Shown one piece after another: positions 53,286 through 63,933 of a stretch of DNA of 64,000 bases; the stretch's first letter is position 1, and every line of letters begins with the position of its first letter. A program made the translations under genes and the position numbers. The notes under the pieces were generated by a model. It was not told where the DNA came from and made no database searches. It saw only the letters and a list, made by a program, of their open reading frames with translations. Source of the DNA: Oceanicola sp. 502str15 (GTDB lineage: Bacteria; Pseudomonadota; Alphaproteobacteria; Rhodobacterales; Rhodobacteraceae); the NCBI RefSeq assembly GCF_024105635.1, contig NZ_WYDQ01000001.1, positions 992,001 through 1,056,000 of the forward strand, given 5' to 3'.

Positions 53286-55694
53286 TCAAGCCCGCAGGGC
53301 GGTGCCATCTGGGTCGAAGAGCGGGGTTGTGGTGAGGCGCGCGGGGCGCATTTGGGAGAGGATTTCGATTTCGGCTTCTTGGCCGTCCTGCGCGTATTCT
53401 CGGGGGATGAGGGCGAGGGCGACGGATTGGCGGGCGTGGTGGGAGTAGCCGCCGGAGGTGCAGAAGCCGACGACTTCGCCGTTGATCCAAACCGGTTCGT
53501 AGCCGTGGACATCGGCGTTATCGGCATCGACGAGAAAGGCGACAAGCTGGCGATTGGGGGGCGTGGCGCGCTCGGATTCTACGTGAGCTCTGCCGATGAA
53601 GTCGCTGTTTTTCTGAAAGGAAATGAAGCGATCGAGGCCGGTTTCGGCGGGGGTGTAATCGGGCGAGAATTCGCGGAGCCAGGAGCCGAAGAAGCGGTCG
53701 AGGCGCAGGGACATCATAGCGCGCATGCCGAAGGGGGTGATGTGATGGGCTTGCCCGGCGGCCCAGAGGCTGTGCCAGAGGGCGCGTTGGTCCATGTGAT
53801 CACAGTAGATTTCATAGCCAAGGTCGCCTGTGTAGCTGACGCGCTGCACGGTGCAGGCGATCTGGCCGACCACCATTTGGGCGACGCCGAGGAATGGGAG
53901 TGCGGCGACGTTGGAGGGGGTGCAGGCTTGGAGGACGTCGCGGGCGCGCGGGCCGGCGAGTTGGAAGCCGGTGAGGCGATCGGAGACGTTCTCGATGTTA
54001 ACGCCGTCTTCACCATGTTGCTCGAACCAGCGCAGGTGCATTGACTGTGCGCCGTAACTGGCTGTTAAGGCATAGCTTTCCGGCCCCATGCAGCTGATCG
54101 TGAAGTCACCGATGATGCGGCCCTTGGGCGAGAGCATGGGGGTGAGGGTGAGTTTGCCCTCCTTGGGGATGCGGCCTGCCATGATCCGGTCGAGCCAGTC
54201 GCGGGCCTTGGGGCCGGTGACGCGGAATTTGCCGAAGTTCTGGATTTCGTTGATGCCGACGCTTTCGCGCACGGCGCGGACCTCGCGGCCGGTGGCCTCG
54301 AAGGCGTTGGAGCGTGTGAAGCTTGGGGTTTCGTAGCTCGGTTCGTCTCCTTGCGCGAAGTAGTTCGGGACTTCGAGCCCGAACTGGTGGCCCCAGACTG
54401 CGCCCATTTCGTTAAAAATGTCATACATGGCAGTCGTCCGGTGGGGACGGGCGGCGGGGCGTTCTTCGTTTGGGTAGCTGACGGAGAAGCGCTTTTGGTA
54501 GAATTCGATGACCTTGGGGACGGTGTAGCCCGGGGTGATCCACTTGCCGTAGCGGGCGACGTCGAGGCCGGTCACATCGCGCTCGGGCTCGCCTTCGATC
54601 ATCCATTGCGCAAGGGTCAGGCCGACGCCGCCGCCCTGGGAGAAGCCTGCCATGACGGCGCAGGCGGACCAGTAGTTGCGCAGGCCCGGCACGGGGCCGA
54701 CGAGGGGGTTGCCATCGGGGGCGAAGGTGAAGGGGCCGTGGATGACGCGCTTGACCCCGGCGCGTTCGAGCACGGGGAAGCGGTGGTAGGCCATCTCGAT
54801 GGAATCGCTGACCTTTTCGAGATTGTCGGGGAGCAGCTCGTGGCCGAACTCCCAGGGGGTGCCGGAGAGCGCCCAGGGCTCGCAGGGCTGCTCGTAGAAG
54901 CCGATGCAGAGGCCGCGACCCTCCTGGCGGAAGTAGGATTCACCCGCGCAATCGAGCACGTGGGGGAACTCGGTTTCGCGGTTCATGATCTCGGGGAGAT
55001 CGTCGGTGACGAGGTATTGGTGGGCCATGGGCAGGAGGGGCAGGTAGACGCCCGCCATGGCGCCGACTTCGCGCGCCCAGAGGCCGGCGGCGTTGACGAC
55101 GTGCTCGGCGTGGATGGTGCCCTTGTTGGTGATGACGTCCCAGGAACCATCGGGGCGGGGCTGGAGGTCTTCGACCTTGCAATGCAGCTCGATCTCGGCC
55201 CCGGCCAGCTTGGCGGCGCGGGCGTAGGCGTGGGTGGTGCCCGATGGGTCGAGGTGGCCGTCGAGGGGGTCGTAGAGGCCGCCGAGGATGCCATCGAGGT
55301 TCACCAGCTCGGCCATATCGGCGATTTCGGCGGGGGTGAGGATGGCGGTGTCGAGGCCCATGTAGCGGTGCTTGGCGCGCTCGGCTTTCAGCATGTCGAA
55401 GCGTTCCGGCGTCTCGGCAAGGGTGATGCCGCCGACGTGGTGGAGGCCGCAGGACATGCCGGTGATCTCCTCCAATTCCTTATAGAGACCAATGGTATAG
55501 CCTTGGAGCGCGGCCATGTTGGTATCGGAGTTCATGGTGTGGAAGCCGCCTGCGGCGTGCCATGTGGAGCCGGATGTAAGCTCGGAGCGTTCGAGCAGCA
55601 TGACATCGGACCAGCCGAGCTTGGTGAGGTGGTAGAGCACCGAGCAGCCGACGACGCCGCCGCCGATGACACAGACGCGGGTGGTGGTTTTCAT
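53286..55694 (-). CDS. FAD-dependent dehydrogenase of the dimethylglycine/sarcosine type
   Basis: An 802-residue two-part enzyme: an N-terminal FAD/DAO oxidoreductase (G-G-G-V-V-G-C-S at 10-17, T-S-G-S-T-W-H-A-A-G) and a C-terminal aminomethyltransferase-like half (about 430-800) that binds tetrahydrofolate. Together these are the signature of dimethylglycine or sarcosine dehydrogenases, which demethylate methylated glycines and pass the carbon to folate. GGGAGT sets the start at 55694. The true substrate is not shown; glycine betaine breakdown is a common role in marine Rhodobacterales. Confidence 0.88.
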   Translation of the reverse strand: MKTTTRVCVIGGGVVGCSVLYHLTKLGWSDVMLLERSELTSGSTWHAAGGFHTMNSDTNMAALQGYTIGLYKELEEITGMSCGLHHVGGITLAETPERFDMLKAERAKHRYMGLDTAILTPAEIADMAELVNLDGILGGLYDPLDGHLDPSGTTHAYARAAKLAGAEIELHCKVEDLQPRPDGSWDVITNKGTIHAEHVVNAAGLWAREVGAMAGVYLPLLPMAHQYLVTDDLPEIMNRETEFPHVLDCAGESYFRQEGRGLCIGFYEQPCEPWALSGTPWEFGHELLPDNLEKVSDSIEMAYHRFPVLERAGVKRVIHGPFTFAPDGNPLVGPVPGLRNYWSACAVMAGFSQGGGVGLTLAQWMIEGEPERDVTGLDVARYGKWITPGYTVPKVIEFYQKRFSVSYPNEERPAARPHRTTAMYDIFNEMGAVWGHQFGLEVPNYFAQGDEPSYETPSFTRSNAFEATGREVRAVRESVGINEIQNFGKFRVTGPKARDWLDRIMAGRIPKEGKLTLTPMLSPKGRIIGDFTISCMGPESYALTASYGAQSMHLRWFEQHGEDGVNIENVSDRLTGFQLAGPRARDVLQACTPSNVAALPFLGVAQMVVGQIACTVQRVSYTGDLGYEIYCDHMDQRALWHSLWAAGQAHHITPFGMRAMMSLRLDRFFGSWLREFSPDYTPAETGLDRFISFQKNSDFIGRAHVESERATPPNRQLVAFLVDADNADVHGYEPVWINGEVVGFCTSGGYSHHARQSVALALIPREYAQDGQEAEIEILSQMRPARLTTTPLFDPDGTALRA

Positions 55695-55944
55695 GGCGCG
55701 ACTCCCTTGGCTTACGGGTTTGATGCTGGGCAGGGCGCGGCTGCGGTGCTGGCCGCTGAGCGACATCGGGTGTCGGAAACGGGGTGCGTTCAGGCGGGTT
55801 AATGGCGGCATTAACCATGGGATTCGGCAATGTCACATCCCGTGCACACGCCGTGCACAGCCCGTGCAGACGTCAGATGACATAGTTGGCGGGCGTTTAC
55901 GAAGGTTGGCGGGGTGTGATGGTGGGTGTGATCACAAGGAGGCT

Positions 55945-56020
55945 GGAGATCCTCGGGTCGAGCCCGAGGATGACGGTTGGCGGCGTGGGTGGAGATCCTC
56001 GGGTCGAGCCCGAGGATGAC
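55945..56020. repeat. Two tandem copies of a palindromic alphaproteobacterial intergenic repeat
   Basis: Thirty identical bases occur at 55945-55974 and 55991-56020, each built on ATCCTCGGG-tcgag-CCCGAGGAT. Palindromes of this kind are very common between genes in alphaproteobacteria and are typically mistranslated as I-L-G-L-D-P-R-I. It sits in the 345-base gap between the flavoprotein gene and livM; I see nothing else in that gap. Confidence 0.85.
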
Positions 56021-56039
56021 CGGGTGCGGGGTGGCGGGT

Positions 56040-57338
56040 TCAGCGCTCGGGGATGAGGCCGCGGGGGGAGAAGCGGAGCACGAGGAGGAGCACGACGCCC
56101 ATGGTGAGCAGGCGCATGTATTGGGTGCTGTCGAGCAGGTGGTCTTTCAGCCAGCTTCCATCGGGGAGCGGCCAGGTGAGGCCTTCCATGAAGAGGCGGC
56201 CGAGCGGTTCGACCTGAATCCAGAGCCACCAGACGAGAAGGCCGCCGAGAAGGGCGCCGAGGTTGTTGCCCGAGCCGCCGACGATGACCATGACCCAGAT
56301 GAGGAAGGTGAAGCGCAGCGGCTGGTAGGTGCCGGGCACGAGCAGCCCGTCGAGGGTGGTCATCATCGCGCCGGCCATGCCGCAGATGGCGGAGCCGAGG
56401 ATGAAGACCTGAAGGTGGCGTCGGGTGACGTCCTTGCCCATGGCGCGGGCGGCGGTTTCGTTGTCGCGGATGGCGCGCATCATCCGGCCCCAGGGCGATT
56501 TCAGCGCCAGTTGCAGGGCGACGATGATGAGCACGAGGGTGGCGGTGAAGAGGCAGCCGTAGAGCAGTTTGACGTAGAGGGTGGAGGCGGTTTCGACCGG
56601 GAGGCCGAGCGAGTCGGCGCGGGCGGTGAAGGCCTCGGATTGCTGGAGGTCGATCTCGTAGGGGACGGGGCGGGGGATGCCGTTGACGTTCTTGACGCCG
56701 CGGGCGAGCCAGTCTTCGTTTTTCATCACGGCGATGATGATCTCGGCGATGCCGAGGGTGGCGATGGCGAGGTAATCGGAGCGCAGGCCCAGCGCGGTCT
56801 TGCCGACGATCCAGGCGGCCCCGGCGGCGAGCAGGCCACCGGCGGGCCAGGCGAGGATGACGGGCAGGCCGAGGCCGCCGAGGTAGCCGGTGGTGGCCGG
56901 GCTGACGGCTTCGACGGCATCGCGGGCCGGGTCGAAGGCGAGACGGTAGAGCACGAAGCCGCCGATGATGACGAGGGTGGTGGCCAGCAGGCGGGCGCGG
57001 CCGGGCGAGAGCCGGGTGAAGGTGAAGATGGCGGCGGCGATGGCGGCCCCGCCGAGCAGGAGGCTGCCCCAGAGCCGCAGGCCGCCGACGGCCCAGGCCT
57101 CGGGCACCGGGGGCATGGCGATGAGCACCGTGGCCAGCCCGCCGAGCGCGACGAAGCCCATGACGCCCACGTTGAACAGCCCCGCGAAGCCCCATTGCAT
57201 GTTGAGCCCCAGCGCCATGATCGCCGAGACCAGGCCCATGTTGAGGATGGTCAGGGAGCTGTTCCAGCTCTGCACGAGGCCGGTGCCGATGTAGAGCGCG
57301 GCGATGAGAGCGAAGAGGAGGACGGGGGGGATCTTCAT
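56040..57338 (-). CDS. livM: Branched-chain amino acid-type ABC transporter permease LivM
   Basis: A 432-residue inner-membrane permease with about ten helices and the family's G-L-R-S-D-Y-L-A-I-A-T-L-G and R-A-I-R-D-N-E-T-A-A segments, the latter being the ATPase-contact loop. It is longer than E. coli LivM mainly in the N-terminal half. The ATG overlaps the livH stop (ATGA). It closes the operon. The true substrate could be branched-chain amino acids, amides or urea-like compounds. Confidence 0.92.
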   Translation of the reverse strand: MKIPPVLLFALIAALYIGTGLVQSWNSSLTILNMGLVSAIMALGLNMQWGFAGLFNVGVMGFVALGGLATVLIAMPPVPEAWAVGGLRLWGSLLLGGAAIAAAIFTFTRLSPGRARLLATTLVIIGGFVLYRLAFDPARDAVEAVSPATTGYLGGLGLPVILAWPAGGLLAAGAAWIVGKTALGLRSDYLAIATLGIAEIIIAVMKNEDWLARGVKNVNGIPRPVPYEIDLQQSEAFTARADSLGLPVETASTLYVKLLYGCLFTATLVLIIVALQLALKSPWGRMMRAIRDNETAARAMGKDVTRRHLQVFILGSAICGMAGAMMTTLDGLLVPGTYQPLRFTFLIWVMVIVGGSGNNLGALLGGLLVWWLWIQVEPLGRLFMEGLTWPLPDGSWLKDHLLDSTQYMRLLTMGVVLLLVLRFSPRGLIPER

Positions 57339-58345
57339 ACCGATTTGCCTTTGAAGAGGCCGGTGGGGCGGATGAGCAGGACGATCACGAGGATCGCGAA
57401 GGAGACGGCGAACTTGTACTCGGTGGTCAGCAGTTGCAGCAGGCCGGAGGGGGCCAGCGCGTCGGGCAGGACGTAGGTGGCGACCTTCTTGAAGGCATAG
57501 GTGACGGTGACTTCGGAAAAGGCGATGACGAAACCGCCCGCGATGGCGCCCAGCGGCGAGCCGAGGCCACCGACGATGGCGGCGGCGAAGATGGGCAGCA
57601 GGAGTTGGAAATAGGTGAAGGGTTTGAACGACTTGTCGAGCCCGTAGAGCACGCCCGCGATGGTGGCCAGCGCCGCGACGATAACCCATGTGACGGCGAC
57701 GACCTTCTCGGGGTTGATGCCCGAGAGCAGGGCGAGGTCTTCGTTGTCGGAGAAGGCGCGCATGGATTTGCCGGTGCGGGTGCGATTGAGGAACCAGAAC
57801 AGCAGGGCCACGCAGATGGCGGCGACGACCATGGTGAGGAGCTGGGTGGAGCGCAGGGCGAGGCCCTCGGCCAGCCCGGTCATCTGTTTGAAATCGCCCG
57901 CGGAAATCACGAAGCGGGCGCCGTCGGCAAAGCGCTGGTCATCGACCCCGATGATGAAGCGGGTGAGGCCGTTGAGGATGAACATGACGCCGATGGAGAC
58001 GATCACCAGGATCACCGGGGCGGCCTTTTGCCTTCGGTAGAAACGGTAGACCGCGCGGTCGGTGCCCAGCACCAGCAGCGCCGTGGCGGCGATGCCGAAG
58101 GGGAGCGCGAGAAGGGCCGTCGGCAGGATGCCGAAGGTGATGCCTGCCGCTTGCAGCGCCCATGTGACGAGGATGGTCATGGTGGTGCCGAAGGCCATGG
58201 TGTCGCCATGGGCGAAGTTGGAGAAGCGCAGGATGCCATAGATCAGCGTGACCCCGAGCGCGCCGAGCGCGAGCTGCGAGCCGTAGGTGGCGGCCGGGAT
58301 GATGACGAAGTTGGTGAGGGCCACGAGGGCGTTGAGCAGGTCCAT
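57335..58345 (-). CDS. livH: Branched-chain amino acid-type ABC transporter permease LivH
   Basis: A 336-residue permease partner of LivM: Y-G-I-L-R-F-S-N-F-A-H-G-D near the N-terminus and the contact loop T-G-K-S-M-R-A-F-S-D-N-E-D-L-A. The start at 58345 (GAGG nine bases upstream) overlaps by one base the stop of the preceding small exported protein. Confidence 0.92.
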   Translation of the reverse strand: MDLLNALVALTNFVIIPAATYGSQLALGALGVTLIYGILRFSNFAHGDTMAFGTTMTILVTWALQAAGITFGILPTALLALPFGIAATALLVLGTDRAVYRFYRRQKAAPVILVIVSIGVMFILNGLTRFIIGVDDQRFADGARFVISAGDFKQMTGLAEGLALRSTQLLTMVVAAICVALLFWFLNRTRTGKSMRAFSDNEDLALLSGINPEKVVAVTWVIVAALATIAGVLYGLDKSFKPFTYFQLLLPIFAAAIVGGLGSPLGAIAGGFVIAFSEVTVTYAFKKVATYVLPDALAPSGLLQLLTTEYKFAVSFAILVIVLLIRPTGLFKGKSV

Positions 58346-58749
58346 CAGCCGGTAACCTCGCAGGTCATGATGTCGATCTCCGCATAGGTTACGGGGTAGC
58401 GCTCGGTGGGCAGCCATTGGCGGATACGCAGGGCCGAGGCCTCGCCGGTGAGCGACAGGGTGTGGAGGTGGCCATCACCTGGCTGCCAGACCCAGGGGCC
58501 GGTGTGGGCGAGGCCACGGGCGGGCAGCGCCTCGCCGCCGTCCTGCGCCACCGTCCAGTCGCCGGTGCCGTTCGTGTCGGTGGACACCGGGGCGAGGGTG
58601 AACTGCTGGGCGCCGCCAAATGGGTCACAGGCGCCGGTCTCGTTGCAGCTTCGGTGCAGCTCGCAGGCCAGCGAGAGCTGCGCGCCCTCGGCGGCGAGGG
58701 CCGCAGGCTGGGTGAGCCCGGTGGCGAGAAGGATCAGCGCCAGCCTCAC
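58345..58749 (-). CDS. Small exported protein S4 with the C-x5-C-x5-C motif, inside the liv operon
   Basis: A 134-residue protein with a signal peptide (cut near A-L-A-A) and C29-x5-C35-x5-C41 just after it, plus a fourth Cys five residues from the C-terminus (M-T-C-E-V-T-G). The middle is strand-like with Trp and Gly. A GTG start overlaps the previous stop (GTGA). It is one of three neighbours with this cysteine plan. I do not recognise the family; the four cysteines would form two disulphides in the periplasm. Confidence 0.75.
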   Translation of the reverse strand: MRLALILLATGLTQPAALAAEGAQLSLACELHRSCNETGACDPFGGAQQFTLAPVSTDTNGTGDWTVAQDGGEALPARGLAHTGPWVWQPGDGHLHTLSLTGEASALRIRQWLPTERYPVTYAEIDIMTCEVTG

Positions 58750-59129
58750 GGGGCCACCTTGCAGGTGCCGTGGAAGTTCTGGCTCTGGATGCCCTCGACG
58801 GAGTTGTGCATCGAGTAGCGGGTGATGCCGCGTTTGAAGATCGAGACGAGGTGGATGGTGTCGTATTCCATGGCCGAGACGTAGGAAAAGCTGTCGCCCA
58901 GCGGGTCGCGGATTTGCCGGACGGGGATGACGCGGGCGGTGGCGGCGCCGCCGGTTTCCATCTCCCACTGGTCGGGGGCGGTGGCCTCGGCGCGGGGGCG
59001 GATGTGGAGCGTCAGGCCGGAGGGCTGGCAGGAGCGCTCTTCGACGCAGTAGCGGGTGAAGCTGCATTCGTAGCCAAGCGCCAGCGCGGGCGCGGGAAGG
59101 AGCAGGGCGGCGAGGAGGGCGAGGCGCAT
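58746..59129 (-). CDS. Small exported protein S3 with the C-x5-C-x5-C motif, inside the liv operon
   Basis: A 127-residue protein: signal peptide (A-P-A-L-A), then C22-S-F-T-R-Y-C28-V-E-E-R-S-C34, and a final Cys in H-G-T-C-K-V-A-P. The body resembles protein S2 near the C-terminus (S-x-H then F-x-x-G-x-C). Its ATG overlaps the S2 stop (TGATG). No transmembrane helix after the signal peptide. Function unknown. Confidence 0.75.
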   Translation of the reverse strand: MRLALLAALLLPAPALALGYECSFTRYCVEERSCQPSGLTLHIRPRAEATAPDQWEMETGGAATARVIPVRQIRDPLGDSFSYVSAMEYDTIHLVSIFKRGITRYSMHNSVEGIQSQNFHGTCKVAP

Positions 59130-59509
59130 CAGAGGGTTCCTTCGCAGGGGCCTTCGGAGAGGAAGCCGAAGGGGGTGCCGAAGAGCTGGCCGTGGACCGA
59201 GAGGATGAACTGGCGTTCGTCATGCAGGGTCAGCAGGGCAACTTCGCCGCGCTCGGGAGAGGTGAGGGTGAAGCTGCGCAGCCCGTCCCCGCTGGGCGGG
59301 CCTTCGGTGAAGCGCATTTCGGGCGCGGTGGCGAGTTTGGGAATGTCGGTGAGGGCGAAGGTGTTGCCTTCGCGGGTGAGGGTGAAGCGGCTTTCGGTCA
59401 TGCCGGTTTCGCAGCTTCCCTCGAGGGTGCAGCTCGTGGTGGGGGTGCAGGTGAGGGCGAGGGCCGGAGTGACGGGCAGGGCGAGGGCGAGGAGGAGCGC
59501 GCGGATCAC
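59129..59509 (-). CDS. Small exported protein S2 with the C-x5-C-x5-C motif, inside the liv operon
   Basis: A 126-residue protein with a signal peptide (M-I-R-A-L-L-L-A-L-A-L, cut near A-L-A), then C21-T-P-T-T-S-C27-T-L-E-G-S-C33 and a C-terminal G-P-C-E-G-T-L. The middle alternates as if beta-rich. A GTG start lies in the stop of S1 (GTGA). It is the first of the three paralogs and, like the others, has no recognised domain. Confidence 0.75.
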   Translation of the reverse strand: MIRALLLALALPVTPALALTCTPTTSCTLEGSCETGMTESRFTLTREGNTFALTDIPKLATAPEMRFTEGPPSGDGLRSFTLTSPERGEVALLTLHDERQFILSVHGQLFGTPFGFLSEGPCEGTL

Positions 59510-59889
59510 AGGCGGCTCTCCAGATAGGCCACGAGGCCCGCGCGGTCTTCGCAGTCGGCGGGTTCGAACAGGGTTTCCGCGCCATCGACCATGGGTTTGA
59601 CCATGATTTCGGTGCTGCCGTCGTCTCGCAGGTTGAGGGCGAGGAAGAGCTTTGCGGTGGAGGCCGTGGCGGAGAGGCGGAGGTTGTCGCCCCGCCGGGT
59701 GAGCTTGGCGTCGCGTTGCAGGGTTTCGTCGAGGGTGAACAGCGCGGGGCGGTCGTCGGAGGGCATGACCGAGACGGCGAGGCTGTGGGTTGCGGAGGTG
59801 CAGAGCCATTCCTGCGGGGGTTCGTCGGCCTGTGCAATGGTGGCAAAGGCGGCGATAAATGCCGCGATGACAAGGGGTTGTAGTAACAT
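59506..59889 (-). CDS. Small exported protein S1, inside the liv operon
   Basis: A 127-residue protein with a signal peptide ending A-Q-A-D. It has two cysteines (E-W-L-C and A-D-C-E) and lacks the C-x5-C-x5-C plan, so it is a different type from S2-S4. The ATG at 59889 is preferred to that at 59895 because GGAGG is six bases before it; the ribosome site overlaps the livF stop. Unknown function; a periplasmic partner of the transporter is possible. Confidence 0.7.
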   Translation of the reverse strand: MLLQPLVIAAFIAAFATIAQADEPPQEWLCTSATHSLAVSVMPSDDRPALFTLDETLQRDAKLTRRGDNLRLSATASTAKLFLALNLRDDGSTEIMVKPMVDGAETLFEPADCEDRAGLVAYLESRL

Positions 59890-59891
59890 CT

Positions 59892-60617
59892 TCATCCTCC
59901 CAGAAAGCTCTGGCGGACTTCCGGGTCGTTCAGAAGCTCCTGCCCGGTGCCGGTGTGGGCGTTGCGGCCCTGGACCAGCACATAGCCCTTGTCGGCGATT
60001 TCCAGCGCCTGCCGGGCGTTCTGCTCGACCATCAGCACCGGCAGGCCGGTGCGGGCGACCTCGATGATGCGGTCGAACAGCTCGTCCATCACGATGGGGG
60101 AGACGCCGGCGGTGGGCTCGTCGAGCATGAGCACCTTCGGCTGGGTCATCAGGGCGCGGCCCACGGCAACCTGCTGGCGCTGGCCGCCGGAAAGTTCGCC
60201 CGCGGGTTGGCGGCGCTTTTCCTTCAGGATCGGGAAGAGATCATAGACCTGCGCCATGGTGCCCGAGATGTCATCCTCGCGGATGAAGGCGCCCATCTCG
60301 AGGTTTTCCTCGACGGTCATGGAGGTGAAGATGTTGTTGGTCTGGGGCACGAAGCCCATGCCGGCGCGCACCCGGTCCTGTGGGGAGAGGGCGGTGATAT
60401 CCTGCCCGTTCAGCCGCACCGCACCCTTGTGGATGTTGAGCATGCCGAAGACGGCCTTCATGGCGGTGCTCTTGCCCGCGCCATTGGGTCCGACGATGAC
60501 GGCGATTTCGCCCGGGTCCACGGCGATGGTGCACGCATGCAGGATGTCGGGGCCAGCGCCGTAGCCGCCGGTCATGGCCTCGCCGATGAGGAAGGCGTTA
60601 GAGGTGTTGTCGAGCAT
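59892..60617 (-). CDS. livF: Branched-chain amino acid-type ABC transporter ATPase LivF
   Basis: A 241-residue ATPase with Walker A G-P-N-G-A-G-K-S-T, signature L-S-G-G-Q-R-Q-Q and Walker B L-M-L-D-E-P-T-A-G. It pairs with LivG to drive LivH/LivM. It is 34 bases after livG and is followed without a gap by the small exported proteins. Confidence 0.94.
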   Translation of the reverse strand: MLDNTSNAFLIGEAMTGGYGAGPDILHACTIAVDPGEIAVIVGPNGAGKSTAMKAVFGMLNIHKGAVRLNGQDITALSPQDRVRAGMGFVPQTNNIFTSMTVEENLEMGAFIREDDISGTMAQVYDLFPILKEKRRQPAGELSGGQRQQVAVGRALMTQPKVLMLDEPTAGVSPIVMDELFDRIIEVARTGLPVLMVEQNARQALEIADKGYVLVQGRNAHTGTGQELLNDPEVRQSFLGG

Positions 60618-60651
60618 CAGCGGGCTTTCGGTTGGCGGGGGGCGGGGCGGG

Positions 60652-61434
60652 TCATGCGGGGGCTGCCTTCTTGTGCTTCAGCCCGGTGCCGAGATAGGCC
60701 TCGATGACGTGCTCGTTGGCCTTGATCTCGGAGAGCGTGCCCTCGGCCAGCACCTTGCCCTCGGCCATGCAGATGACCGGATCGCAGAGGCGTTCGATGA
60801 AATCCATGTCGTGCTCGATGACGACGAAGGTGTAGCCGCGCTCCTTGTTGAGCCGGATGATCGCGTCGCCGATGGTGTTGAGGAGGGTTCGGTTGACCCC
60901 GGCGCCGACCTCGTCGAGGAAGACGATGCGGGCGTCGACCATCATGGTGCGGCCCAGTTCGAGCAGCTTTTTCTGCCCGCCGGAGACCTGGCCTGCCTTG
61001 TGGTCGGCGAGGTGGGAGATGGTGAGGAATTCCAGCACCTCGTCGGCCTTGGCGCGGAGCGCGCGCTCTTCGTCGGCGATGCGTTTGCGGCCGAACCATG
61101 TGTTCCAGAGCGCCTCGCCGGATTGGCCGCCGGGGACCATCATCAGGTTTTCGCGGCAGGTCATGGAGGAGAACTCGTGCGCGATCTGGAAGGTGCGCAG
61201 CAGGCCCTTGGCAAAGAGCGCGTGGGGCGGCAGGCCGGTGATGTCTTCGCCATCCATTGTGACGCGGCCTGAGGTGGGTTCAAGAACGCCTGCTACCACG
61301 TTGAAAAGGGTGGTCTTTCCGGCGCCGTTGGGGCCGATGAGGCCGGTGATGGAGCCGGGCTGGATGGCAAGCGTGGCGCCGTCGACGGCGTGGAAGCCGC
61401 CGAAGTGCTTGTGCAGGTTCTCGACCTGAATCAT
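60652..61434 (-). CDS. livG: Branched-chain amino acid-type ABC transporter ATPase LivG
   Basis: A 260-residue ATPase with Walker A G-P-N-G-A-G-K-T-T, signature V-S-G-G-Q-K-K-L and Walker B I-V-F-L-D-E-V-G-A-G. The Pro-Thr usually after D-E is Val-Gly here (D-E-V-G-A-G), as in some LivG relatives. The C-terminus carries the Liv-type H-V-I-E-A-Y-L-G. Confidence 0.94.
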   Translation of the reverse strand: MIQVENLHKHFGGFHAVDGATLAIQPGSITGLIGPNGAGKTTLFNVVAGVLEPTSGRVTMDGEDITGLPPHALFAKGLLRTFQIAHEFSSMTCRENLMMVPGGQSGEALWNTWFGRKRIADEERALRAKADEVLEFLTISHLADHKAGQVSGGQKKLLELGRTMMVDARIVFLDEVGAGVNRTLLNTIGDAIIRLNKERGYTFVVIEHDMDFIERLCDPVICMAEGKVLAEGTLSEIKANEHVIEAYLGTGLKHKKAAPA

Positions 61435-61451
61435 GTGATGTCCCCGAATGG

Positions 61452-61482
61452 GATGCGGCGGAGGGCTGGCCCCCGCCGCATC
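61452..61482 (-). terminator. Intra-operon hairpin between livK and livG
   Basis: A perfect 10-bp stem GATGCGGCGG (61452-61461) with CCGCCGCATC (61473-61482) and an 11-base loop, no T-run. Such stems after a binding-protein gene commonly keep its mRNA more abundant than the rest of the operon. Confidence 0.65.
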
Positions 61483-61498
61483 TGTCTTGTGGCCGCGA

Positions 61499-62695
61499 TC
61501 AGCGGTACTTGGCGGTCGCGATCTTGCCGTCTTCGAACAGGATCTCGCGGTAGTTGCCCGCGCTTTCGCCGGGGCCGATCAGCTCGACGGCGGAGGCGCC
61601 GACGTAGTCGATGTCGGTGCCTGCGGCGATCAGTTCGAGCGCCTTGGCCAGCTCGCCGGGGAAGATCTGCTCGCCGGGGGCGTTGGCGACGTCCATCACC
61701 TTGTCCTTGTAGACGTTGGGATCGTCGGAGTCGGCGGCGGCCATGGCCAGCATGATCAGCGCGGCGGCGTCATAGCTTTCGGGCGCGAAGGGGGAGGTGG
61801 GATCGAAGCCCGCGGCGGTGCCCAGCTCGGCGAACATGGCGTTGCCGGGGCTGTCGGTGCCGGGGTGCTGGCCGGTGGAGCCGTTGATCTCGGCGCCGAA
61901 GTTCTCCTCGAGCGCGGTGCCGATCATGCCATCGGGGAAGTGGAACTTGTCGAAGGCGCCGCTATCGAGCGCGGCGCGCACGATGCCCGAGCCGCCCTGG
62001 TCGACGTAGCCCGCGACCACCAGCAGATCGCCCCCGGCGGAGGCCAGCGAGGCGACCTCGGCGGAGTAGTCGGCCTTGCCGTCTTCATGGGCGGCCGAGA
62101 TGGTGACGGTGCCGCCGGCGGCCTCGTAGGCAGCCTGGAAGCTGTCGGCCAGACCCTTGCCGTAGTCGTTGTTGGTGTAGGTCAGCGCGACCGTCTTCAC
62201 ATCGTTGTCCATCAGCACCTGGGTCATCACCTCGCCCTGGCGGGCGTCGGAGGGGGCGGTGCGGAAGAAGAGGCCGTTGTCTTCGGTGGTCGACAGGCCC
62301 GGCGAGGTGGCGGAGGGGGAGATCATCACCATGCCGTTCGGGACGGCGACGTTGGTGAGGATCGCGCCGGTCACGCCGGAGCAGTCGGCGCCCATGATGC
62401 CCTTGATCCCGTCGGAGGTGATCAGTCGTTCGGCGGCGGCCGCGGCGGCGGCGCTGTCGACGCAGGTGCTGTCGGCCTCGACGGCGGTGACGGTGGCGCC
62501 GCCCATGAGCGCGCCGCTCTCGGTCACTTCGGCCATGGCCATCTTGGCGGCGTCACGCATGTGGGGCGTGAGGCTTTCGATCGGGCCGGTGAAGCCGAGG
62601 ATGATGCCGAGCTTCACTTCGGAGCTGTGGCTTTCGGCCAGCACGGGGCTGCTCAGGGCAGCGATGGCCGTGGTGGCGAGGATGAGTTTTTTCAT
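61499..62695 (-). CDS. livK: Branched-chain amino acid-type periplasmic binding protein LivK
   Basis: A 398-residue periplasmic-binding fold type I protein: signal peptide ending P-V-L-A, then K-L-G-I-I-L-G-F-T-G-P-I-E-S and a late S-Y-D-A-A-A-L-I-M-L-A-M. GGGAGA precedes the ATG. The ligand pocket cannot be read reliably; amino acids or short amides are typical. It is first in the operon and diverges from the sugar dehydrogenase-like gene. Confidence 0.93.
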   Translation of the reverse strand: MKKLILATTAIAALSSPVLAESHSSEVKLGIILGFTGPIESLTPHMRDAAKMAMAEVTESGALMGGATVTAVEADSTCVDSAAAAAAAERLITSDGIKGIMGADCSGVTGAILTNVAVPNGMVMISPSATSPGLSTTEDNGLFFRTAPSDARQGEVMTQVLMDNDVKTVALTYTNNDYGKGLADSFQAAYEAAGGTVTISAAHEDGKADYSAEVASLASAGGDLLVVAGYVDQGGSGIVRAALDSGAFDKFHFPDGMIGTALEENFGAEINGSTGQHPGTDSPGNAMFAELGTAAGFDPTSPFAPESYDAAALIMLAMAAADSDDPNVYKDKVMDVANAPGEQIFPGELAKALELIAAGTDIDYVGASAVELIGPGESAGNYREILFEDGKIATAKYR

Positions 62696-62847
62696 TGTTG
62701 GTCTCCCTGTTGGAACATTGTCCTGCCGGAGAGCCTAGACCGGGAATTTCGCTTTGGAAAGCGGGGCTGTGCGGGTTGCCTTGCGGAAAGTTGAATGGGC
62801 TGTGCGGGGGCGGGCGGTTAGGCTTGGGGTCAAAGAGGAGAATTGTG

Positions 62848-63933
62848 ATGTCTGGACGGATGGCAGGGCTGTTGATCGGGGTTTGGGCCCTTTTCGCAGG
62901 GGGCGCGGCTGCGGCGCAGGGCGTGGTGATCGAACGGGTGATGGCCGGGCTGGACGAGCCTTGGGGGCTGGCCTTCATGCCCGGTGGCGGGTTTCTGGTG
63001 ACCGAGCGCGGCGGAGATCTGACCGTGGTCATGAATGGCGAGGCGCAGAGGGTGCGCGGGGTGCCGGATGTCTATGATAGCGGGCAGGGCGGGCTGCTGG
63101 ACGTGATGGTGCCACGGGATTTTGCCCAGAGCCGCGAGGTCTTCGTGAGCTATTCGAAGACGCAGGGCGGCGGGGCCGGGACGGCGCTGGGGAAGGGGCG
63201 GCTGTCGGCGGATGGCACGGCGCTCGAGGGCTTCGAGGTGCTCTTCGAGATGGAGCCCGGATCGAGCGGCGGGCGGCATTTTGGCAGCCGGATCGTGGAG
63301 GGGTCGGACGGGTACATCTACCTGACGATCGGTGAGCGGGGCGACCGGCCGGCGGCGCAGGATCTGGGCCGGGAGAATGGCTCGGTGGTGCGGGTGGCGC
63401 GCGATGGCAGCGTGCCCTCGGACAACCCCTTTGTCGGGCAGGCGGGCGCACAGCCCGAAATCTGGAGCTACGGCCACCGCAACCCGCAGGGCGCGGCGCT
63501 GGACGGGCGCGGGCAGCTCTGGGTGGTGGAGCATGGCGCGCAGGGCGGCGACGAACTGAACCGCGTGGAGAAGGGCGCGAACTATGGCTGGCCGGTGATT
63601 TCCTACGGGCGGCACTACTCGGGGGCGAAGATCGGCGAGGGCGTGGAGAAGCCGGGGATGGTGCAGCCGGTGCATTATTGGGATCCGTCGATCGCGCCCT
63701 CGGGGCTGATGTTCTACTCGGGCAGGCTCTGGCCGGAGTGGGAGGGGCATGTGTTTGTGGGGAGCCTGAAGTTTGACATGATTTCAAGGCTTTCGGCGGA
63801 CGGGCGCGCCGAGTTGGCGCGCATCGAGGCGCCGGAGACGAGCCGGGTGCGCGATGTGCGCGAGGCGCCGGACGGGAGCATCTGGTTTTTGTCGGTGGGC
63901 GAGGGCGCGATTTTCCGGATGACGCCGGAGTAG
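62848..63933 (+). CDS. PQQ-dependent aldose dehydrogenase-like beta-propeller protein
   Basis: A 361-residue exported protein of the soluble glucose dehydrogenase/YliI family: signal peptide (G-A-A-A-A-Q), then L-D-E-P-W-G-L-A-F-M-P, G-G-R-H-F-G-S-R-I, Y-G-H-R-N-P-Q-G-A and E-H-G-A-Q-G-G-D-E-L-N, the core blades that bind PQQ and calcium and position the catalytic His. AAGAGGAG sets the start at 62848 (an in-frame GTG lies three bases upstream). The electron acceptor is unknown. Bases 63934-64000 show nothing further. Confidence 0.9.
   Translation: MSGRMAGLLIGVWALFAGGAAAAQGVVIERVMAGLDEPWGLAFMPGGGFLVTERGGDLTVVMNGEAQRVRGVPDVYDSGQGGLLDVMVPRDFAQSREVFVSYSKTQGGGAGTALGKGRLSADGTALEGFEVLFEMEPGSSGGRHFGSRIVEGSDGYIYLTIGERGDRPAAQDLGRENGSVVRVARDGSVPSDNPFVGQAGAQPEIWSYGHRNPQGAALDGRGQLWVVEHGAQGGDELNRVEKGANYGWPVISYGRHYSGAKIGEGVEKPGMVQPVHYWDPSIAPSGLMFYSGRLWPEWEGHVFVGSLKFDMISRLSADGRAELARIEAPETSRVRDVREAPDGSIWFLSVGEGAIFRMTPE

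Follow-up and report, generated by a model that had tools for sequence, protein, structure and literature searches.

Organization of the operon and its cassette

The DNA analysed here (hereafter, the window) is a 64,000-nucleotide stretch of the genome of Oceanicola sp. 502str15 (positions 992,001–1,056,000 of contig NZ_WYDQ01000001.1). It includes an operon for an ATP-binding cassette (ABC) importer of the liv type, in which four genes for small exported-type proteins (S1–S4; collectively, the cassette) lie between livF and livH. Importers of this type are described as built from a binding protein together with a pair each of permeases and ATPases. All genes are on the minus strand, in the order livK-livG-livF-S1-S2-S3-S4-livH-livM. 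The cassette is bordered upstream by the livF-type ATPase gene (59892..60617; PF00005, 1.9e-32) and downstream by the livH-type permease gene (57335..58345; PF02653, 6.1e-40). S1, found by a scan for open reading frames (ORFs), encodes an exported protein of 129 amino acids (aa) with two Cys residues (59506..59895; start ATG at 59895, with a second ATG at 59889). S2 (59129..59509; 126 aa, GTG start), S3 (58746..59129; 127 aa, ATG start), and S4 (58345..58749; 134 aa, GTG start) encode exported proteins of one four-Cys family. Neighbouring genes overlap by four bases (livF/S1, with S1 read from 59895; S1/S2; S3/S4) or by one base (S2/S3 and S4/livH); read from its alternative start at 59889, S1 begins 2 bases past livF. 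The leaders of S1–S4 were assigned from hydrophobicity and by eye, and none of the four has a lipobox with a Cys at +1 (judged by eye). A preliminary description of the window had reported four signal-peptide proteins between livF and livH, and its coordinates, Cys positions, and stop–start overlaps are correct, with four residues following the last Cys in S2–S4.

The remaining genes of the operon encode a livG-type ATPase (60652..61434; ORF list and NCBIfam scan), a livK-type periplasmic binding protein (61499..62695; NCBIfam scan, and Leu-/LIV-binding proteins in the PDB from 2.4e-25), and a livM-type permease (56040..57338, within the ORF 56040–57689; 4-base overlap with livH). The livG-livF gap is 34 bp in the window and 1.4–2.0 kb in four of five congeners (L008, L009, L010, and L011), where it holds other exported-type ORFs; the liv operon as a whole seems to collect exported proteins. 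GC content at third codon positions is 0.82–0.93 in S1–S4 and 0.88–0.94 in the liv genes, with no sign of a recent foreign origin. In a weak scan of positions 56000–63200, sigma-70-like sites were absent, as were terminator-like sites on the strand of the operon.

The importer is of the HAAT/branched-chain type, as judged from LivH (PF02653), LivF (PF00005), and the likeness of LivK to solved Leu-/LIV-binding proteins. None of the NCBIfam cut-offs for branched-chain transporters was reached by LivH (106.9 bits against 379), LivF (200.2 against 441), LivG (195.1 against 362), or LivK (119.1 against 477). Urea models score slightly above the Liv models, yet they too stay under their cut-offs (UrtE on LivF, 222.2 against 285.8; UrtD on LivG, 196.2 against 304.1), and LivF falls under every NCBIfam equivalog cut-off shown. 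All four scored components are far under these thresholds. A dimethylglycine-dehydrogenase/GcvT-like gene (53286–55811) is located downstream of livM, and a similar gene is found past livM in four congeners and at 6 of 39 other loci (some with little sequence past livM); this neighbour hints that the substrate may not be a branched-chain amino acid. The LivK of congener L012 is just 75 per cent identical to that of the window, and those of the other four congeners are 92–94 per cent identical; its sequence suggests that the L012 binding protein may have been exchanged.

A family with a conserved cysteine plan

Each of S2, S3, and S4 has exactly four Cys residues, at positions 21, 27, 33, and 122 (of 126), 22, 28, 34, and 123 (of 127), and 29, 35, 41, and 130 (of 134), respectively, and the last Cys is always 4 residues before the end. 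S1 has C32 and C115 only. A profile built from 49 members outside the genus matched S3 (4e-20), S2 (2e-15), and S4 (2e-13); at E ≤ 10, none of the remaining window ORFs of at least 60 residues was matched, S1 included. Since an out-of-genus profile picks these three proteins alone in the window, their likeness goes beyond chance, and on sequence grounds S2, S3, and S4 are homologues. We defined membership of the family by a match to this profile, a C-x5-C-x(4-9)-C motif, and a Cys close to the C-terminus, all of which S2, S3, and S4 have. Good matches to S1 among the fetched loci are all from within the genus, and weak ones were found in L008 (0.0025; same genus) and L075 (0.028); S1, which has a similar predicted fold, is possibly a remote relative of S2–S4.

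The Cys spacing is kept in related genomes. Counts of Cys across the family lean towards the plan, as they are drawn from profile matches, but a count made with no profile found the plan in 59 of 80 exported-like junction ORFs of other genera. Among 93 control ORFs, it occurs in 7, all of them members at loci that had been fetched for a profile match. The S4 subtype is present in many genera (17 members from as many loci, the window counted, form one similarity cluster), a relative of S3 in another genus (L196) is 50 per cent identical, and the named sequences closest to S3 belong to Vannielia. In four of five congeners, the livF-livH gap contains six exported-type ORFs, of which four or five follow the plan, and the fifth congener has fewer; between livH and livM, a further C-x5-C-x5-C gene is present in two congeners.

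Within the genus, the ratio of nonsynonymous to synonymous substitution rates (dN/dS) is below 1 in all comparisons of S1–S4, and is 0.16–0.39 for S3 (the most conserved), 0.24–0.75 for S1, 0.30–0.49 for S4, and 0.53–0.86 for S2 (the fastest evolving). The values for livF and livH are 0.07–0.14; the livM value of L009 in this comparison is a contig-end mismatch.

None of 57 members of the S2–S4 family matched Pfam, NCBIfam, or PADLOC at E ≤ 0.01, and S1 has no match in Pfam or NCBIfam. One member has a weak PHROG match (0.0024), and a single-sequence search of viral contigs with S2 returned no match. Searched alone against 61 genomes, S3 was matched in six, all of the genus (its own genome counted), which is misleading because the profile finds the family widely. 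A profile search of a protein database returned 10 proteins, a number that is probably low because candidates were preselected by shared words.

Linkage to one importer operon

An ortholog of livH (one match at E ≤ 1e-100) is present in 136 of 149 Rhodobacteraceae genomes. Profile A1 has a match in 54 of the 149, and 61 of its 68 matches are at livF-livH when compared with livH positions. This count is not independent, because the rows of A1 were taken from junctions of these first 149 genomes, and for this reason 394 Rhodobacteraceae genomes were searched next, at least 132 of which have profile matches (a lower bound, as no more than 11 candidates were scored in any one genome). The independent counts come from 77 matched genomes that are new and outside the genus, 74 of which carry a member in the liv operon. 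Forty of the 77, namely the first by number among the new matches whose completeness is 90 or more and whose place is listed, were studied over longer stretches; these contain 59 matches, of which 56 lie between livF and livH, two between livG and livF, and one elsewhere (L192). In the other 37, judged by eye from coordinates, the match is just upstream of livH in 32 and directly past livF in two (G189 and G364). In G251 (L278:4358-8174), livK-livG-livF are followed by members and livH is on a separate contig; here the cassette stayed with livF.

A scan of 84,980 species (one genome each) for a DNA motif encoding T-E-C-(Y/F)-E-x-E-x-C identified 27 loci, at least nine of which appear to come from genomes already used; L226 and L239 seem to be the same contig. 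At every one of the 27, a member is encoded upstream of livH, with livF visible beyond it in 24 and the rest cut by the slice. Named hosts of the cassette include Litoreibacter, Aliiroseovarius, Sagittula, Roseivivax, Thioclava, Lentibacter algarum, and Pseudooceanicola batsensis. No member was found near the 12 further LivH-like loci of the window's own genome. In a class-level sample of 289 genomes, three were matched, namely the window's own and two weakly. By these searches, the family is nearly confined to Rhodobacteraceae in the genomes sampled, and is unnamed and fast-evolving.

The family is very strongly linked to a single orthologous importer operon, where its home is the junction of livF and livH or, in some cases, that of livG and livF. 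The preliminary description had proposed that the exported proteins form a periplasmic unit serving the transporter. The finding that homologues are situated mostly within the liv operon (61/68 matches, 74/77 genomes, and 27/27 motif loci), together with the preserved Cys spacing, lends support to a unit tied to this importer.

Predicted fold

The model of S3 has eight strands (predicted local distance difference test [pLDDT] of 87, predicted template modelling score [pTM] of 0.77). The model of S1, computed from an alignment of 7 rows, is an eight-stranded barrel with a C-terminal helix (pLDDT 83.5, pTM 0.73). In both models, the barrel has Cys residues in its first strand and in its last. 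The predicted structure is an eight-stranded barrel that would be closed by a C1–C4 disulphide, with a C2–C3 staple in the first loop. The preliminary description had also considered a disulphide-linked complex, an idea that is not supported: Cys numbers in S1–S4 are even (2 or 4), and the models put Cys on the first as well as the last strand of a single barrel, an arrangement that points to internal staples more than to disulphides between proteins.

One PDB sequence search with family profiles gave a match at 0.21, and another gave none. Avidin-type barrels (bradavidin, 4ggt; agroavidin, 8an6) resemble the predicted fold in being eight-stranded meander barrels of similar size, but they are 4–11 per cent identical to S3 over the aligned part, and the cassette proteins have extra Cys residues. 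The top match to the S3 and S1 models in a second look was 5hal, a 'putative beta-lactamase' of Burkholderia vietnamiensis (10 and 1 per cent identity, respectively). PhiA (7dpy), a periplasmic protein of the lysozyme-inhibitor type, also came up in the structure comparison. The 57 cassette members lack a Pfam match, and PhiA does not appear in the list of 50 entries for S3, an absence that still leaves it a candidate relative. A class-wide reading of the cassette proteins as lysozyme inhibitors of the MliC/PliC type was tentatively set aside, as no such entry appears among the 50 matches listed for the S3 model.

Members outside the liv operon

The seven of 68 matches away from livF-livH are in G114 (two), G153, G175 (two), G134, and G174 (G174:C16, E of 0.003). 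In G114 (L173:6659-7431), two members are located directly past a DctP-DctQ-DctM operon for a tripartite ATP-independent periplasmic (TRAP) transporter, and the genome's own liv junction is empty (gap of 5, L041). Their best relatives are liv-linked and from other genera (51 per cent identity in L189 and 60 per cent in L197), and the liv operon of L185 has a relative of each (49 and 28 per cent) in the same order. These similarities make a transfer between importer operons possible. A weak member lies between the genes for an Opp-type binding protein and the first permease in G175 and G407 (L177:6317-6715 and L281:4371-4661); that of G407 is an extra match in a liv-linked genome, as is a weak match in G261 downstream of a mannitol-dehydrogenase gene. 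The weak relative in G134 (L175:6551-7054) does not have the C-x5-C core and is beside resolvase-like and integrase-like ORFs (named by eye); a similar sequence is found at L220:68-493, outside the family. A match in G416 (E of 0.0014) was set aside as probably spurious, being a shadow frame of an epimerase gene.

Possible roles of the cassette

The reading that we tentatively prefer, with a probability of roughly 0.4, is that the cassette encodes optional periplasmic accessory barrels of the importer. Export would deliver the barrels to the periplasm in step with the importer, and there they would bind solutes, or a face of the binding protein or permease, so that uptake might be widened, buffered, or tuned; different genomes would carry different sets of barrels because their diets differ. 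An accessory of solute uptake is favoured by the linkage to one importer, by the barrel fold, and by the occasional occurrence of members in other importer operons.

Several observations weigh against this reading. A barrel fold by itself shows no function, and a Foldseek search with the S3 model found no match at E ≤ 0.001. The cassette is also optional. The 136 genomes with livH comprise 127 from other genera, the window, seven that were not fetched at first (G156 was fetched later, as L179), and one in which the contig ended before livF. Among the 127 genera, plan-bearing ORFs (one to three) are present at the junction in 49, and 78 have the importer without such a junction member. The livF-livH gap is 30–199 bp in 19 genera, 200–599 bp in 43, and at least 600 bp in 21; in the remaining 44, livF lies within 30 bp of livH, and the importer is without a cassette. 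Other exported families occupy these junctions too. On a tree of LivF plus 130 residues of LivH, presence of the cassette is near random (37 changes vs. a shuffled mean of 39.7, with 186 of 1000 shuffles as low as 37). No residue of LivK, LivG, LivF, or LivH (first 140 aa) tracks the cassette (permutation P-values of 0.52, 0.37, 0.11, and 0.73, respectively). Distant members also have a second home, a gmk/YicC/DAHP-synthase neighbourhood (some names assigned by eye), in four genera, represented by G153, G175, G252, and G227 (L174:6620-7811, L176:6470-7266, L192:5731-6123, and L279:4416-4688), alongside a penicillin acylase in G153 and G175 and ahead of a MobA-like gene in G227 and G252; these last two genomes have a member only there and none at the liv operon. 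An extra weak member in the liv-linked G299 has no evident transporter nearby. The optional, tree-independent distribution, the lack of a tracking residue, and the members beside non-transport genes count against a strict partnership. Of the proposed periplasmic unit, the tie to this importer is supported, and service to the transporter as a general rule is called into question by the 78 genera without it, the absence of a tracking Liv residue, and the members at TRAP, Opp, and non-transporter sites.

The same observations fit a different explanation, in which the junction, being permissive and well expressed, takes in small exported proteins whose jobs in the envelope are unrelated to the importer. 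Consistent with it, 21 of the 80 junction ORFs in other genera do not have the plan, other exported-type ORFs occur in the wide livG-livF gaps of the four congeners, presence of the cassette is tracked by no Liv residue, the distribution is near random, and some members adjoin non-transport genes. Such passengers, however, would be expected across many highly expressed operons, and the four-Cys family is mostly at one operon despite the 12 other LivH-like loci in the genome that have no member; moreover, several of the exceptions are other importer operons. We regard this explanation as somewhat unlikely.

Alternatively, the barrels could be guards that shield the importer or the cell wall from phages, bacteriocins, toxins of rivals, or wall-cutting enzymes, with the changes in copy number and sequence reflecting an arms race; we consider this quite improbable. 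That the signal-peptide ORFs merely take the mRNA to the translocon and provide livH with a ribosome site, the product mattering little, fits the overlapping genes and a Shine-Dalgarno-like word 4–16 nucleotides before livH (32 of 49 cassette operons vs. 9 of 44 tight empty ones), from which the last codons of the cassette may carry the livH ribosome site, but it is highly improbable, since 44 of 127 genera manage without a cassette and since the conserved Cys, the well-predicted fold, and purifying selection indicate that the protein product matters.

A wider proposal would make one conserved importer operon the main home of a diversifying set of barrels, secreted and stapled by disulphides, that undergo gain, loss, and duplication and occasionally move to other importer operons. 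They would give binding-protein-dependent uptake a layer of exchangeable modules for specificity or protection; in this full form we hold the proposal to be rather unlikely.

Relation to known systems and significance

The operon of the zinc importer AztABCD of Paracoccus denitrificans is probably the nearest known arrangement to cite. AztD is a zinc metallochaperone that hands its ligand to the binding protein (PMC7463823); like the cassette proteins, it is an additional periplasmic protein whose gene lies within the operon of an ABC importer. Unlike AztD, on present evidence, the cassette proteins are small, have four Cys residues, are multicopy and optional, and have no assigned ligand. Nothing on the cassette or the family, and no description of an accessory transport layer of this kind, was found in the literature searched (open-licence papers).

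Proteins of this family, matched in at least 132 of the 394 sampled Rhodobacteraceae genomes and nearly always with a member in one importer operon, are named by none of the curated families tested. If they tune uptake, they may explain part of the differences among marine bacteria in what is taken up; if they guard the importer, the operon would be a hidden battleground. The conserved genomic place of a changing set of small secreted barrels in a single importer operon makes their role directly testable there.
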